This document shows positions 7,443 through 61,426 of a stretch of DNA of 64,000 nt, in pieces. The notes under the pieces are model-generated. The model was not told the DNA's origin. It was given only the letters and a program-made list of their open reading frames with translations, and did no database searches. The translations under genes and the position numbers were made by a program. Numbering within the stretch: position 1 is the stretch's first letter; each line of letters begins with the position of its first letter. Origin of the DNA: Leeuwenhoekiella aequorea (GTDB lineage: Bacteria > Bacteroidota > Bacteroidia > Flavobacteriales > Flavobacteriaceae); contig NZ_QOVM01000005.1 in the NCBI RefSeq assembly GCF_004104375.1, positions 62,001 through 126,000 on the forward strand, in the 5' to 3' direction.

Positions 7443-8696
7443 TTATAAGCCAAAAGCTTCTTTTACTTTATCTACATAATCCAGTTTTTCCCAAGTAAAG
7501 AGTTCGACTTCTTTAGTCACTCTACCACTGTATGGACTTTCAAATATTTTAGTGATTACCTGAGGATCTTTACCCATGTGACCATAGGCTGCAGTTTCTC
7601 TATAAATAGGATTGCGCAATTTTAAACGCTCTTCGATGGCTGCAGGTCGCATATCAAAAAGCTCACGCACTTTTGATGCAATCTCACCATTACTCATACT
7701 CACTTTTTTGGTTCCGTAGGTATCAACAAAAATTGAAGTTGGCTCCACTACACCTATAGCATAAGAAACCTGAACTAAAACTTCGTCAGCAACACCGGCA
7801 GCTACAAGATTTTTTGCAATGTGTCTTGCTGCATATGCAGCAGAACGGTCAACTTTACTAGGGTCTTTTCCTGAAAATGCGCCTCCGCCGTGAGCGCCTT
7901 TTCCACCATAGGTGTCTACAATGATTTTACGACCGGTAAGTCCCGAATCACCGTGTGGTCCACCTATTACAAATTTCCCAGTAGGGTTTATATGATAGGT
8001 GATCTCGTCATTAAATAATTTTGCCAAGTCTTCTGTAAGTCCTTCCTTAACGCGAGGGATTAAAATAGAAATTATATCTTTTTTAATCTTATTTAGCATT
8101 TTTTCGTCCTCATCAAATTCGTCGTGTTGAGTAGAAACTACAATCGCAACGATTTTTTGAGGGATATTATCATCAGAATACTCAATGGTAACCTGTGCCT
8201 TTGCATCTGGCCTTAAGTAGGTAATATCTTTATCTTCACGGCGCAGTTTAGCAAGTTCGATCATAATACGATGCGATATATCTAAAGCTAGCGGCATATA
8301 ATTAGCCGTTTCTTTAGTCGCATAGCCAAACATCATTCCTTGATCTCCCGCACCTTGTTCTTCTTTAGAAGCCCTGTCGACTCCTTGATTAATATCTTTA
8401 GATTGCTCATGGATTAATGAGATTACTCCACAGCTGTCACCGCTAAACTGATATGCACCTTTTGTATAGCCTATGTCATTTATTACACCACGCGCTATAT
8501 TTTGAACATCTAAATAGGTGTCACTTTTGACTTCTCCAGCCAGAACAACCTGCCCGGTTGTTACAAGTGTCTCGCAAGCAACTTTTGATTCTGGATCAAA
8601 AGCTAGAAAATTATCTAAAAGCGTATCGCTAATTTGATCTGCAATCTTATCAGGGTGTCCTTCAGACACACTTTCTGAGGTAAATAAGTAAGCCAT
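7443..8696 (-). CDS. metK: S-adenosylmethionine synthetase
   Basis: MetK makes S-adenosylmethionine from methionine and ATP in the cytoplasm. The 417-residue protein carries the family signatures: 'SEGHPDKIADQISD' near the N-terminus (ATP site), 'GAGDQGMMFGYA' in the first third, and the glycine-rich 'GGGAFSGKDPSKVDRSAAY'. The start ATG at 8696 gives MAYLFTSESVSEGHPDK, matching the family. It is transcribed divergently from metY and has a structured leader of about 225 bases with its own promoter (separate entries), so expression is probably tied to SAM. It is monocistronic, with a terminator directly after the gene. Confidence 0.98.
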   Translation of the reverse strand: MAYLFTSESVSEGHPDKIADQISDTLLDNFLAFDPESKVACETLVTTGQVVLAGEVKSDTYLDVQNIARGVINDIGYTKGAYQFSGDSCGVISLIHEQSKDINQGVDRASKEEQGAGDQGMMFGYATKETANYMPLALDISHRIMIELAKLRREDKDITYLRPDAKAQVTIEYSDDNIPQKIVAIVVSTQHDEFDEDEKMLNKIKKDIISILIPRVKEGLTEDLAKLFNDEITYHINPTGKFVIGGPHGDSGLTGRKIIVDTYGGKGAHGGGAFSGKDPSKVDRSAAYAARHIAKNLVAAGVADEVLVQVSYAIGVVEPTSIFVDTYGTKKVSMSNGEIASKVRELFDMRPAAIEERLKLRNPIYRETAAYGHMGKDPQVITKIFESPYSGRVTKEVELFTWEKLDYVDKVKEAFGL

Positions 8697-8810
8697 TCAA
8701 GCAAATTTTTCCCAATTAGGGGTATTAAGTTTTAGCACGTACCTAAACTTAAAATTAGTTTTGATTTTTATAACTCCTGTGCTCCCACAGCGAATTGTTT
8801 TAAACCGAAA

Positions 8811-8920
8811 AAAGATTTGACGAGGGCTACTTCTGGTAGTTGTTTACTGCCTTTAGCATTTTTTTATACAGGGGTTTTAGACTTGTATAAGAGGTTGCAA
8901 TCAGTCAAATCTTTCCTCAA
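8811..8920 (-). ncRNA. structured metK leader, candidate SAM-II-like riboswitch
   Basis: On the reverse strand the leader starts with ttgagg (8920-8915) and cctc (8894-8891), which enclose a 20-base loop containing GATTTGA and ATTGCAA. A hairpin follows (ttataca/tgtataa), then AATGCTAAAGGC. This order (short stem, GATTTRA...TTGCAA loop, then a GCTAAA tail) is like the SAM-II (metA/SAM_alpha) pseudoknot aptamer as I remember it. ACTG in the loop can pair with CAGT after GCTAAAGG. In addition, bases 8904-8914 and 8811-8821 are perfectly complementary over 11 bp, and the distal arm runs into six T's, suggesting a termination switch. The ligand is inferred from the gene it precedes; it is not the S-box fold. 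Confidence 0.55.
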
Positions 8921-8928
8921 TGAGTTCG

Positions 8929-8959
8929 CAAATGTATAAATTTAGAAGGTATTACAAAA
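8929..8959 (-). promoter_or_regulatory. metK promoter
   Basis: On the reverse strand TTTTG (8959-8955), an 18-base spacer and TACATTTG (8936-8929) match the Bacteroidota TTTG-N19-TAnnTTTG promoter closely. The expected start of transcription is near 8922, directly before the structured leader. Confidence 0.75.
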
Positions 8960-9074
8960 CGACTATTAAAATCTTATGAAAACTTTTCATTTTGTAAATT
9001 TAATAGGGTTTACTTGCATATCTGTAAAAGGTTTTGCAATCTTTACGCTCATAAAGTTCAAACACGTATTGAAA

Positions 9075-9181
9075 TGTTATCAAGAAAGGCGGAGGGATAG
9101 ACCCAATGAAGCCTTAGCAACCCTTCCTACGGGATGAAGGTGCTAAATTCTACAACAGCAATGTGCTGATGATAGATAACC
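9075..9181 (+). ncRNA. SAM-I (S-box) riboswitch before metY
   Basis: The element has the S-box core in order: closing stem gttatc (9076-9081) with gataac (9175-9180), 'aagaaaggcggaggga', 'atgaagccttagcaaccc', and 'aaggtgctaaattct'. These are the strongly conserved kink-turn, J3/4 and SAM-contact segments of the SAM-I class. A terminator hairpin follows at once, so SAM should stop transcription of metY and what follows. A second S-box is found before metH. Confidence 0.95.
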
Positions 9182-9185
9182 TAAC

Positions 9186-9216
9186 AAGCTATTTTTTCTG
9201 AATAGCTTATTTTTCT
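9186..9216 (+). terminator. riboswitch-controlled terminator before metY
   Basis: The stem aagctatt (9186-9193) and aatagctt (9201-9208) is followed by attttt. It starts 5 bases after the S-box closing stem, as expected for the expression platform of a transcription-attenuating S-box. Confidence 0.8.
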
Positions 9217-9295
9217 TAATAACATTTTTCTTGTAATTAGTGCCAGAGCGGCATTATTTGACTTTGGTTTAATTTATTTAATTCAAAAAAGAAAG

Positions 9296-10573
9296 ATGAG
9301 TACTCAAAAATTTTCAACACAAGCTTTACATGCTGGTCATGACACTACTACAAATGGAGGTACACGAGCTGTGCCTATTTACCAGACTAGTAGTTATGTT
9401 TTTAATGATTCTGATCATGCTGCGGGATTATTTAATCTATCGCAACCCGGTTTTATTTATACACGTTTAAATAATCCTACAAATGATGTTTTAGAGCAAC
9501 GTCTAGCGGCTTTAGAAGGTGGTATTGCAGCTGTAGTGACAGCTTCTGGAACTGCTGCAATTAACACAGCATTGCTCACACTTTTAAAGCAAGGAGATCA
9601 TATCGTAGCTTCGAGTAGTCTCTATGGAGGAACTTATAATTTATTGAATGTTACGCTTCCCAGATTTGGTATAACAACCACGTTTGTTAATCCTGATGAG
9701 GTTTCAAACTTTGATTCTGCTATACAAGATAACACACGTGCTATTTTTGTAGAATCTTTAGGAAATCCTAAGCTTGATGTTTTAGATCTAGAAAAAATTT
9801 CTGCTACAGCTAAAGAACATAAAATTCCCTTAATTGTAGATAATACGGTTGCTTCACCTGCACTTTTAAATCCTATTTCACACGGGGCAAATATTGTAAT
9901 TCATTCCCTCACAAAATACATCAATGGAAATGGAACATCATTAGGAGGGGTTATTATTGATGCAGGAACTTTTGACTGGTCTAGCGGAAAATTCCCAGAA
10001 TTTACAGAACCTTCTGCCGGCTATCATGGATTAGTATATCATGATGTCTTGGGACCAGCAGCTTTCATTGCAAAAACACGTATTGAAGGATTACGGGATC
10101 ATGGTGCAGCTTTGAGTCCGTTTAATGCCTTTCAAATTATACAGGGATTAGAAACTTTAAAAGTCCGTATAAAGCAACATAGTGAAAATGCACTGGAATT
10201 AGCAACTTGGTTAGAAGCACAACCTGAAGTCGCTTGGGTTAATTATCCAGGATTAGCAAGCAGCAAATACAATGATCTAGCAAAAAAATACCTTCCACAC
10301 GGGCAAAGCGGGATTGTAACTTTTGGTCTTAACAGTGGATTTGAAGGAGCAAAGACAGTTGCAGATAAAACAGAAATTTTTTCGCTTCTAGCAAATATTG
10401 GAGATACAAAATCATTAATTATTCATCCGGCGAGTACTACCCATCAACAATTACATGATGAAGCACAGGAAGCAACCGGAGTTACTAAAGATTTAATTCG
10501 TCTTTCTGTGGGTCTTGAGGATGTAGAAGATTTGAAAGCCGATTTAAAGGCAGCTTTTGCTAAAATTAAATAA
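9296..10573 (+). CDS. metY: O-acetylhomoserine sulfhydrylase (aminocarboxypropyltransferase)
   Basis: MetY is a PLP enzyme that makes homocysteine from O-acetylhomoserine and sulfide. The 425-residue length fits MetY (longer than MetB/MetZ at about 390). The start 'KFSTQALHAGHDTTTNGGTR' and the PLP lysine Lys207 in 'HSLTKYINGNG' are typical. An S-box riboswitch controls it, and it lies 71 bases before the gene whose N-domain makes its acetylated substrate. A hairpin between them may reduce read-through. Sulfide comes from the cys genes 9 kb downstream. A second sulfhydrylase-like gene (metZ type) lies at 14.6 kb. Confidence 0.95.
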   Translation: MSTQKFSTQALHAGHDTTTNGGTRAVPIYQTSSYVFNDSDHAAGLFNLSQPGFIYTRLNNPTNDVLEQRLAALEGGIAAVVTASGTAAINTALLTLLKQGDHIVASSSLYGGTYNLLNVTLPRFGITTTFVNPDEVSNFDSAIQDNTRAIFVESLGNPKLDVLDLEKISATAKEHKIPLIVDNTVASPALLNPISHGANIVIHSLTKYINGNGTSLGGVIIDAGTFDWSSGKFPEFTEPSAGYHGLVYHDVLGPAAFIAKTRIEGLRDHGAALSPFNAFQIIQGLETLKVRIKQHSENALELATWLEAQPEVAWVNYPGLASSKYNDLAKKYLPHGQSGIVTFGLNSGFEGAKTVADKTEIFSLLANIGDTKSLIIHPASTTHQQLHDEAQEATGVTKDLIRLSVGLEDVEDLKADLKAAFAKIK

Positions 10574-26053: not shown

Positions 26054-26246
26054 TCTTGATTATCAATAAAATGTATAATTTTAGAAAATATTAACTCCTC
26101 GTTTATGACATTTAAACTGCTAAATAACTCTCTTTAGCGCAGTTATTATTTCGTTATTTTAATTAAAGATGAATATTAGTTGTTTAAAATTTATGTATTC
26201 TCAAGTTGTTTTATAATCTTTGCAGCCGAGTTCATTATTTATTTAA
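26054..26246. other. non-coding stretch before the metH leader
   Basis: AT-rich DNA without a credible gene. The only signal I see is TAATCTTTG (26214-26222), one base longer than the usual -7 element and at the right distance to start the S-box transcript. Confidence 0.5.
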
Positions 26247-26346
26247 GTTATCAAGAAAGGCAGAGGGATTAGACCCATTGAAGCCTTAGCAACCCTCCCC
26301 TGGAGAAGGTGCTACGTTCTACTCTTTTGATTAAGGGATAGATAAC
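26247..26346 (+). ncRNA. SAM-I (S-box) riboswitch before metH
   Basis: The closing stem gttatc (26247-26252) pairs with gataac (26341-26346). The conserved blocks 'aagaaaggcagaggga', 'ttgaagccttagcaaccc' and 'aaggtgctacgttct' are in the standard order. It is clearly homologous to the element before metY, and it controls the metH1-metH2-metF unit. The terminator that follows shows transcription attenuation. Confidence 0.95.
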
Positions 26347-26354
26347 AAAAAAAC

Positions 26355-26458: not shown

Positions 26459-27484
26459 ATGAGTCAGAATAAACTATATACCGTTTTACAAGAGAGAATT
26501 CTAGTTCTTGATGGTGCCATGGGCACTATGTTACAGCGCTACAAATTTTCAGAAGAAGATTTTCGGGGAGAACGATTTAAAGATTGGGAAAGTCCGGTTC
26601 AAGGCAACAATGACTTGCTAACCTTAACACAGCCCGAAGCCATTGCAGCTGTACACGCTAAATATTTTGAAGCAGGTGCAGATATCGTAGAGACAAACAC
26701 CTTTAGCGGTACAACTATAGCCATGGCAGATTATGGGATGGAATCTCTTGTGTATGATTTAAATTATGAATCAGCTAAAATAGCCAAATCAGTAGCAGAT
26801 AAGTTTACGGCGAGTGAGCCTCACAAACCCCGGTTTGTAGCAGGAGCAATGGGACCTACAAATAAGACAGCAAGTATGTCTCCAGATGTTAATGATCCTG
26901 GATATAGAGCTATTTCTTTTGATGAATTACGTATAGCTTATAAACAACAAGCCGAAGCACTGGTTGATGGGGGTGTTGATATACTTCTAGTAGAAACCAT
27001 ATTTGATACACTTAACGCTAAAGCTGCTTTATTTGCAATTGAAGAACTAAAAGAAGAACGAGATATTGAAATTCCGGTGATGGTGAGTGGTACGATTACC
27101 GATGCTTCAGGGCGTACTTTGTCTGGACAAACAGCCGAAGCTTTTTTAATATCTATAGGTCATATGCCATTACTTTCTGTAGGTTTCAATTGTGCTTTAG
27201 GAGCAGAGCAATTAACTCCTTATCTCGAGATCGTTTCTGGTAAGTCTGACTTTGCTATCTCTGCATATCCTAATGCGGGACTACCCAATGCTTTTGGAGA
27301 ATATGATGAAACAGCAGAAGAGATGGCTTCTCAAATTAAAACATACCTAGACAAACAACTTGTTAATATCGTGGGTGGCTGTTGTGGTACCACTCCAGAG
27401 CATATACGAGCAATTGCCAATCTAGTAAAAGATTATAAACCCAGACCACTTCCGGCTTTTGCAAAACGTGAAGCAGCATTATAA
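26459..27484 (+). CDS. metH: methionine synthase, homocysteine-binding (N-terminal) half
   Basis: 341 residues equivalent to the zinc/homocysteine module of cobalamin-dependent MetH. The ligand cysteines are Cys245 ('GFNCALG') and Cys308-Cys309 ('[11 protein letters not shown]'), and the N-terminus reads '[13 protein letters not shown]'. The module activates homocysteine thiolate for methyl transfer. MetH is split here: the remaining domains are encoded by the gene that starts 8 bases after this stop. An S-box riboswitch precedes it. It could stand alone as a homocysteine methyltransferase, but context makes the split-MetH reading much more likely. Confidence 0.95.
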
Positions 27485-27492
27485 TATATCCT

Positions 27493-30222
27493 ATGATTAA
27501 TACACCAGAAGCAACGGATAATATTGAGTTTAGACCATTAAAACTAAGTGGTCTCGAACCCTTGATTATTACTCCCGAAAGCAATTTTGTAAATGTAGGA
27601 GAACGTACGAATGTTGCTGGATCCCGTAAGTTTTTACGTCTTATAAATGAAGATAAGTTTGATGAAGCTCTGGCTATTGCAAGAGAGCAGGTAGATAATG
27701 GAGCTCAAATCATTGATGTTAATATGGACGATGGTCTTATTGACGGAAAGAAAGCAATGGTGACGTTTCTAAATTTAATTGCTGCAGAGCCAGACATTTC
27801 AAGAGTTCCTATTATGATAGATAGCTCAAAGTGGGATATTATCGAAGCAGGTCTACAAGTGGTGCAAGGAAAGTGCGTTGTTAATTCAATAAGCTTAAAA
27901 GAAGGAGAATCCGAATTTATAGCACATGCAAAAAAGATTAAGCGATATGGTGCTGCAGTAGTAGTTATGGCGTTTGATGAGGTGGGACAGGCAGATAATT
28001 ATGATAGACGCCTTGAAATAACCAAACGTAGTTATGATATTTTAGTAAACAAGGTTAATTTTCCTCCAGAAGATATCATTTTTGATCTTAATATTTTTCC
28101 CGTCGCTACGGGGATGGACGAGCATAAACTCAATGCAATAGATTTTATAGAGGCTACGCGCTGGGTGAAGAATAATCTGCCTTACGCAAGTGTGAGTGGT
28201 GGTGTAAGTAATGTATCCTTTAGTTTTAGAGGAAATGATACGGTGCGTGAAGCTATGCACTCGGTATTTTTATATCACGCAATAAAAGCAGGAATGAATA
28301 TCGGGATTGTAAATCCGTCTATGCTAGAGATTTATGATGATATTCCTAAAGAATTACTTACTCACGTTGAAGATGTTATTTTAAACAGGAGGGATGACGC
28401 CACAGAGCGACTTTTAGATTTTGCAGAAAGCGTAAAGGGAACTTCAAAAGAGAAAGTTGTTGATCTTGCCTGGCGAGAAGAACCACTGCAAAATAGAATT
28501 ACTCGAGCATTAGTTAAGGGGATAGACGCGTATATTCTTGAAGATATTGAGGAGGCACGATTGGCATCAGAAAAACCGCTACACGTGATAGAAGGACATT
28601 TAATGACCGGAATGAACGTTGTGGGAGATTTATTTGGAAGCGGAAAGATGTTTCTTCCGCAGGTTGTAAAGTCTGCACGAGTGATGAAAAAAGCAGTTGC
28701 TTATTTATTGCCGTATATCGAAGAAGAAAAACTTAAAAATCCGCCGCCAGCAGATGAGAAAGCAAAATCTAATCTGGTATTGATGGCAACCGTGAAAGGG
28801 GATGTACACGACATAGGGAAAAATATTGTGAGCGTCGTTTTAGCGTGTAATAATTACGAGATAATAGATATGGGCGTGATGGTGCCTCCAGAGAAAATTA
28901 TCGCAACGGCAAAAGAGCGTAACGTAGATATTATAGGTCTTAGTGGTCTAATTACGCCTTCTCTGGACGAGATGGTGTTTTTGGCTAAAGAAATGAAGAG
29001 ACAAAATTTTACGGTACCGCTTTTAATAGGTGGTGCAACGACGAGTAAAGCGCATACAGCCGTAAAAATCGATCCCGAATACCCTGAAGCTGTGGTGCAT
29101 GTTAATGATGCGTCCAGAGCGGTAACTGTAGTTGGAGATTTACTGAATCCCGAATCCAGATTAAAGTATAAGTCTGACATTAAAGAAGATTATGCACTTT
29201 TTAGAACACGCTTTCTTACCCGCGGAAAAAAACGTGACTTTCTAAGTATAGAGCAAGCCAGAGCTAACAAATGGAAACTTAACTGGGAGAATTTTGAAGC
29301 TTATACGCCCAATGAATTAGGTATACAGGTAGTAGAAGAATTTGATCTCAATAAGCTTGTGGATTATATTGACTGGTCTCCATTTTTTAGAAGTTGGGAT
29401 CTGCACGGTAAATACCCTGAAATTCTTGATGATGAAGTGGTGGGCGCACAAGCACAAGAACTTTTTGCAGATGCCAAGAAGATATTAGAAAAAATTCTAA
29501 GCGAGAAATTGCTCACTGCCAAAGCGGTGTTTGGTCTTTTTAAAGCAAATACTGTAAATGATGATGATATTGAGATTGTCACATCAAATTTAAGCGGGGA
29601 GCAACACGAGTTTATTTTTAGAACCCTGCGTCAACAAAGCAAAAAAGCATCGGGTAAACCCAATATTGCACTTTCAGATTTTATAGCTCCAAAAGAAACC
29701 GGCAAGCAAGACTATATGGGATGCTTTTGTGTAACGGCTGGTTTTGGAACACAAGAGTTAGCTGCAAAATATGAAGCAGAGCACGATGATTATAACAGCA
29801 TTATGGTAAAAGCACTGGCAGATCGTTTTGCAGAGGCTTTTGCAGAATATCTACATAAAGAAGTACGTACTAAACACTGGGGATATGCTAGTGAGGAGGC
29901 GTTGAGCAATGCCGAATTAATTAAGGAACAATACAAAGGTATACGGCCTGCCCCGGGATATCCTGCGTGCCCAGATCACTTAGAAAAACTCACGATTTGG
30001 GATGTTCTAGATGTTCATAAAAATATAGGCGTAGAGCTTACCGAAAGTTTGGCTATGTGGCCTGCAGCTTCGGTGAGTGGTTATTATTTTGCAAATCCTG
30101 AAGCACGTTATTTTGGCTTAGGAAAAATTAAAATGGATCAGGTTAAAGATTTTGCAGAGCGGAAAAATATTGAAGTAAGAATGGCAGAAAAATGGTTAAA
30201 TCCTAATATTTCTGATGATTAG
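27493..30222 (+). CDS. metH: methionine synthase, folate, cobalamin and reactivation domains
   Basis: A 909-residue protein with the other three MetH modules. The pterin-binding domain begins at '[16 protein letters not shown]' (about 35-50). The cobalamin domain has the cobalt ligand His439 in 'GDVHDIGKN', plus '[13 protein letters not shown]' and '[13 protein letters not shown]'. The C-terminal activation domain has '[19 protein letters not shown]' for SAM-dependent reactivation. It transfers a methyl group from methyl-tetrahydrofolate through methylcobalamin to homocysteine held by the partner. It is followed by a GC-rich repeat and then metF. Confidence 0.97.
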
Positions 30223-61310: not shown

Positions 61311-61330
61311 ATGTCTAATAATAAAATTTT

Positions 61331-61426
61331 GCGTGAGGGATTGCAGCGGCATCCTTTGTGAAGACTACTTAGTCTTTATAAAGATATAGCGTAAAGCCCG
61401 ACCCCAATTTTAATAGGGGTCACGCC
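61331..61426. repeat. conserved flavobacterial structured repeat, copy 2
   Basis: A 96-base element between convergent genes. The outer arms gcgtga (61331-61336) and tcacgc (61420-61425) pair. Inside are aagact/agtctt, atccttt/aaagat and acccc/ggggt stems, and the blocks ggattg, agcgg and aaagcccgacccc. The order of blocks matches the element at 30226-30312. It could be a transcribed structured RNA or a small mobile repeat. Confidence 0.65.

Follow-up and report, generated by a model that had tools for sequence, protein, structure and literature searches.

The metK leader carries a SAM-II long-loop aptamer

The window, a stretch of 64,000 nucleotides of Leeuwenhoekiella aequorea DNA, contains a metK gene (7443-8696, minus strand) that encodes a 417-residue S-adenosylmethionine synthetase with the domains PF00438, PF02772, and PF02773. 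Its leader carries a SAM-II (long loop) aptamer (8842-8924), on the minus strand like all features below unless stated otherwise. The aptamer was identified by cmscan with the RF01726 covariance model at 55.5 bits (E 6.4e-8), above the gathering score of 44, and the other SAM-II model, RF00521, gave no match at E up to 1 within 8600-9300. The aptamer is the known SAM-II long loop of RF01726 and no new class. An earlier note on this DNA had assigned the leader to SAM-II, which the RF01726 match bears out, but its wording, "candidate SAM-II-like", is too weak for a family that a passage of Weinberg 2010 (PMC2864571) already lists for Bacteroidetes and marine samples.

The leader follows the order of RF01726, with a P1 stem, a GATTTGACTGATTGCAA loop, and a GCTAAAG(G)CAGT tail, and these elements are invariant in 11/11 aligned leaders of the genus. 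According to the RF01726 alignment and the sequence, P1 is formed by the 5′ strand GAGG (8915-8918) and the 3′ strand CCTC (8891-8894), and the predicted P2 pseudoknot by ACTG (8905-8902) and CAGT (8849-8846), two complementary strands that are both invariant in the genus alignment. The conserved tail GCTAAAGGCAGT, likewise invariant in the 11 leaders, lies at 8846-8857. The short stem, the tail, and the pseudoknot partners are present as the earlier note described them, and so is the extra hairpin that it placed between stem and tail. This inserted hairpin (8864-8890), with arms TTATACA (8890-8884) and TGTATAA (8870-8864), is the "long loop" of the family name; across the 11 genus leaders, 98.5% of its cells are paired and 4/7 pairs have changed on both sides. 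The stretch between P1 and GCTAAA is at most 16 nt in 132/208 leaders of the sample described below, so the inserted hairpin is optional.

A promoter-like sequence (8929-8959) precedes the aptamer, with TTTTG at 8959-8955, an 18-nt spacer, and the -7 box TACATTTG at 8936-8929. The -7 consensus of sigma-A in Flavobacterium psychrophilum is given as TAnnTTTG in a passage of PMC9723704, and this motif was found no more than 35 nt upstream of P1 in 199/208 leaders, where shuffles lead us to expect 5.7. Because TAnnTTTG lies just upstream of P1, the RNA would begin a few nucleotides before the aptamer, which is probably near the 5′ end of the mRNA, judging from the position of the -7 box.

Distribution of the aptamer and the leader sample

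RF01726 was found at E up to 0.001 in 187/199 genomes of the bacterial family (182 above the cut-off) and in 13/13 genomes of the genus (12 above the cut-off). At the same threshold, it was found in 101/148 genomes of the order and 45/296 genomes of the phylum. Our sample of 208 leaders comprises 162 loci read first and later loci from the order and phylum searches. The leaders were drawn from the stronger RF01726 matches among those listed, with at most 30 loci each from order and phylum, and L065 (the same place as L040), L215, and six repeats were excluded. Leaders of genes other than metK were kept among the 208; their start codons are uncertain, and that of L143 lies inside the gene. The gene behind L037 is metK by sequence.

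Several SAM-II long-loop aptamers precede genes other than metK. By eye, these genes are metY-like (L016) and metH-like (L143); L161 precedes the gene of a DUF6580 protein, and L160 and L162 precede genes of two similar proteins. The 39-residue start of the L162 protein gave no Pfam match.

An anti-aptamer strand is complementary to the aptamer loop

The earlier note described an 11-bp perfect complement between 8904-8914 and 8811-8821, and this complement is exact, with the right coordinates: on the minus strand, AAAGATTTGAC (8914-8904) is fully complementary to GTCAAATCTTT (8821-8811). The distal arm is correct as far as it was given but omits 8810-8807, as the full helix has 15 pairs (13 Watson-Crick, 2 G-U) between the aptamer strand GAGGAAAGATTTGAC (8918-8904) and the anti-aptamer strand GTCAAATCTTTTTTC (8821-8807). 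The 15-bp helix consumes the 5′ strand of P1 (GAGG) and half of the aptamer loop. The note had argued that helix and aptamer exclude each other, and the anti-aptamer helix is supported by the co-evolution tests below. It had also considered a three-way junction of another class; its P1-closed fold resembles the predicted SAM-free fold of this same RNA.

The minimum free energy (MFE) fold of 8800-8930 (-29.3 kcal/mol, z -3.34) includes the switch helix plus three further pairs, and 1/200 shuffles was as good. The duplex between the aptamer and the downstream platform has an energy of -23.2 kcal/mol in the window, which 0/48 mock upstream regions of the window match. When the window was scanned, 5/1966 overlapping 130-nt stretches reached this energy; the platform and the antisense of the aptamer are necessarily among these five. 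The 11-mer GTCAAATCTTT occurs twice over both strands of the window, as the platform and as the antisense of the aptamer. We note that the leader in the window is atypical, as 109 nt separate the end of its helix from the ATG.

The anti-aptamer strand co-evolves with the aptamer

In 161 leaders, the duplex between each aptamer and its own platform had a mean energy of -17.49 to -17.6 kcal/mol, compared with -11.16 to -11.5 kcal/mol for dinucleotide-shuffled platforms. All 100 shuffles were beaten in 46/161 leaders, and at most 5/100 shuffles were as good in 107/161, leaving 54/161 that miss this level. Platforms swapped between leaders gave -15.69 to -15.88 kcal/mol (sd 0.145 for the latter value), and 0/10000 permutations were as good as the own platforms. 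To allow for the conserved loop and the similarity among relatives, we also kept a single leader for each of 72 distinct aptamer cores, which gave a mean z of -10.2, with 0/1000 permutations as good in each of 100 draws; the P values ignore phylogeny, for which the 72-core test corrects in part.

A further 47 leaders, 32 from other families and 15 from the same family, were fetched after the idea had been formed. Their own platforms gave -16.05 kcal/mol, shuffled platforms -10.32 kcal/mol, and swapped platforms -12.81 kcal/mol (sd 0.39; 0/5000 permutations as good), and when these leaders were reduced to 24 cores, z was -6.2. The switch helix is real, and the anti-aptamer strand co-evolves with the aptamer.

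The paired segment varies between leaders in two registers. The platform contains CAAA[TG] in 112/208 leaders, where a mononucleotide shuffle expects 15%, and GCAAT or GTAAT, facing ATTGC in the other half of the loop, in 55/208 (11% expected); 17 of these 55 have both registers, and 58/208 leaders have neither as strict 5-mers. Contingency counts of Watson-Crick pairs around CAAA[TG], seen against those expected if the two sides were independent, showed an excess at -1 (88/76.7), -2 (65/43.9), and +1 (93/79.2), little or none at the linker positions -3 (58/52.8), -4 (47/47.8), and -5 (54/54.0) and at +2 (77/70.6), and no excess at +3 (9 seen, 12.5 expected). Compensating variants, chosen by eye and then each found in the best duplex of its leader, are GGTC/GACC in L122, ACTTTGAT/ATCAAAGT in L156, GAGTAG/CTACTC in L194, TTGTC/GACAA in L198, and GAGCA/TGCTC in L202. 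In addition, the loop GATTTGGC faces the platform GCCAAATC in L174, L178, L183, and L188, with the near-identical L174 and L183 counted once.

Within the genus, no pair of the long helix has changed on both sides in the 11 aligned leaders. Eight of the 15 pairs never vary, three vary on one side, and four depart by unpaired cells only. The 8-bp core GATTTGAC/GTCAAATC is the only part of the helix that is invariant in the genus, and the adjoining pair is broken in 7/11 rows; the full 11 bp of the earlier note are therefore not kept, while their 8-bp core is. That note had made its proposal depend on conservation of GCTAAA or of either helix among relatives, and both GCTAAAGGCAGT and GTCAAATC are invariant in 11/11 aligned genus leaders, which leaves the proposal unrefuted by this check. 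Two genus leaders lie outside the alignment: GTCAAATC is present in L043 and absent from L042, which pairs weakly through another stretch.

Predicted effect on the start region

In 184/208 leaders, 10-35 nt separate the end of the best helix from the start codon (45% for shuffles). In folding calculations that leave out SAM and the pseudoknot, the mean unpaired probability of the start region (-18 to +3) was 0.557 with the aptamer available, 0.502 with the aptamer removed, and 0.499 with a shuffled aptamer. The start region was predicted to be more open with the aptamer free to pair in 151/208 leaders, although the effect is modest. Shuffled platforms reverse the change (-0.027 vs +0.055), and for the start region they give 0.536, slightly more than the bound state of the real platforms. 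For the region -15 to +12, the change had the predicted direction in 112/156 leaders.

In the window, the predicted unpaired probability of the start region falls from 0.59 to 0.33 when the aptamer is taken out of pairing. When the aptamer is constrained to its own structure, the MFE fold brings the anti-aptamer region onto the start-codon region, and the metK translation-initiation region (8690-8715) is its predicted partner in this constrained fold. The free fold has an energy of -53.0 kcal/mol and the constrained fold -39.5 kcal/mol, both without the energy of SAM or the pseudoknot; from this gap, it seems that SAM has to act while the anti-aptamer is still to be transcribed. The distance from the aptamer tail to CAAA[TG] has a median of 25 nt (107 leaders). 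Complementarity to the start region shows a moderate enrichment for the anti-aptamer (34/207 leaders at the level of at most 5/100 shuffles) and likewise for the whole platform, which reached this level in 38/206 leaders, where about 10 are expected. The fold of the window's platform alone is not unusual (z -1.37, 17/200 shuffles as good).

We propose that the metK leader is a SAM-II riboswitch with an anti-aptamer platform that turns translation down at high SAM, a reading to which we give a probability of about 0.6. An RF01726 aptamer near the 5′ end of the mRNA would be followed by an expression platform built on the anti-aptamer strand. When SAM is absent, the anti-aptamer would pair with the 5′ strand of P1 and the aptamer loop (15 bp in the window), which would destroy the SAM pocket and hold the platform strand off the start region, and metK would be translated. 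Should SAM bind while the anti-aptamer is not yet made and paired, the aptamer and its pseudoknot would persist, and the freed anti-aptamer may then fold around the start codon and lower metK translation. The computed basis of this reading is the family match, the helix, its recurrence, its co-evolution, its placement relative to the start codon, and the direction in which accessibility is predicted to change. We infer that this RNA binds SAM, that the switch follows an OFF logic, and that its control is translational and kinetic.

Two further candidate structures were rejected. The first was a common off-state hairpin of the platform and 20 nt of coding sequence, for which the mean z was -0.72, with 34/208 leaders below -2 and 20 above 1, so that the platforms share no strong fold; in these folds, the end of the tail was placed too early for some long-loop leaders. 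The second was an anti-tail hairpin, CTTTAG/CTAAAG, which beat shuffles in 47/208 leaders and gave no swap signal (z -0.09, 31 tails), and which is at most a lead.

GCTTT...AAAGC arms, a candidate off-state hairpin, stand on both sides of the anti-aptamer region, ahead of the start codon, in 11/208 leaders (L002, L003, L005, L006, L008, L009, L011, L019, L021, L106, and L112).

Alternative explanations

Part of the match with an A/T-rich platform is due to composition, given an A/T-rich core and a loop that hardly varies. That the complementarity as a whole is due to chance is nonetheless extremely improbable, as shuffles, swaps, reversed-aptamer decoys (-10.29 kcal/mol), and coding stretches (-12.12 kcal/mol) were all weaker than the own platforms in the 161 leaders. 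The earlier note suggested a termination switch, in which the long helix and the T6 of its T-rich arm would form an intrinsic terminator competing with the aptamer. The window helix does carry T6 at its 3′ side, a T-run of at least 5 occurs somewhere in 84/208 platforms, and the SAM-II of meliloti metZ is predicted to terminate, according to a passage of PMC9373788. However, the sign is wrong for feedback, since SAM would block the terminator and raise metK, and all six U of T6 are paired inside the switch helix. The only site that a terminator scan of 8650-9000 picked up lies on the plus strand (8777-8790), leaving the minus strand without any. A T-run of at least 5 lies near the helix end in just 25/208 leaders, and 72/208 platforms have no T-run above 3. 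We therefore regard termination as quite improbable.

Two other readings keep the anti-aptamer helix and change what it does. SAM may switch metK on if the helix represses and SAM relieves the repression, and initiation might in principle suffer from a long-range helix that forms upstream of the start codon. This logic would be the opposite of product feedback on metK, and the start region is predicted to be more accessible with the helix in those 151/208 leaders, which makes a SAM-activated metK very improbable. A more serious contender, still unlikely in our judgment, is that the anti-aptamer sets the folding of the aptamer and that repression acts through access of Rho or RNase to the exposed platform or through the stability of the mRNA 5′ end. 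It would fit the co-evolution, which is with the aptamer, the weaker complementarity between platform and start region (38/206), and the many exposed platforms that look pyrimidine-rich by eye. The location of the helix just before the start codon in 184/208 leaders and the reversal of the accessibility change by shuffled platforms favour instead an effect on initiation, as in the translational reading that we prefer.

Relation to known riboswitches

A passage of Weinberg et al. 2010 (PMC2864571) describes RF01726 as a cis-regulatory riboswitch of Bacteroidetes and marine samples, and the leader agrees with it in aptamer, taxa, and regulatory label. The Rfam model, in contrast, has 60 positions, ends just after CAGT, and is without the anti-aptamer, the two registers, and the start region. 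With SAM-II of RF00521, as presented in passages of Corbino et al. 2005 (PMC1273637), it has in common one stem with a pseudoknot, a promoter a few nucleotides before P1, and genes of methionine and SAM synthesis, whereas many platforms there have putative intrinsic terminators and the scan of 8650-9000 found no terminator-like site on the minus strand here. SAM-II is generally described with terminators or with masking of a Shine-Dalgarno (SD) sequence in the relevant passages of PMC2258182, PMC1273637, and PMC9373788, the last of which describes a Sargasso Sea example as masking an SD. Riboswitches in which bases of P1 pair with the platform in the ligand-free state are treated in a passage of PMC2258182. 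The leader resembles them in that a helix between aptamer and platform excludes the bound fold, and differs in that the helix also takes half of the loop and precedes an SD-less start, and in that the paired segment varies between lineages. No description of the switch-helix platform was found in the titles and abstracts searched, although a mention in the supplements of Weinberg 2010 is possible. The switch helix thus appears undescribed, while the aptamer was already known.

According to a passage of PMC6847099, Bacteroidetes do without SD sites, and in F. johnsoniae, whose mRNAs have none, the structure around the start codon adjusts the level of translation. How a riboswitch could control translation in Bacteroidetes is therefore not obvious, and our model offers a concrete, testable answer for a riboswitch present in 187/199 genomes of the family. 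More tentatively, and with somewhat less than even odds, Flavobacteriales and relatives may share an as yet undescribed platform of SAM-II long-loop riboswitches, a roving anti-aptamer directly upstream of an SD-less start codon. Such an element would co-evolve with the loop, pair with different halves of the loop in different lineages, and mask the start when SAM is bound, with a kinetic choice made within the ~25 nt between tail and anti-aptamer. The aptamer loop is seen here co-evolving with a competitor strand, and the natural compensating pairs are suited to mutational tests.

Other riboswitches and RNAs in the window

The SAM-II aptamer (8842-8924, minus strand) and a SAM-I riboswitch (RF00162, 84.8 bits; 9074-9182, plus strand) lie back to back in one intergenic region, the former serving metK and the latter the gene of a Cys/Met-metabolism PLP enzyme. 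Both classes were found at E up to 0.001 in 151/199 genomes of the family; a passage of Barrick and Breaker 2007 (PMC2258182) reports no species with both SAM-I and SAM-II. A second SAM-I riboswitch (79 bits; 26245-26348, plus strand) lies upstream of a homocysteine S-methyltransferase ORF (26459-27484), and the next ORF (27493-30222, 909 residues) resembles, by eye, the rest of methionine synthase. A Flavo-1 RNA (RF01705, 53.3 bits) was found at 61326-61407 on the plus strand.
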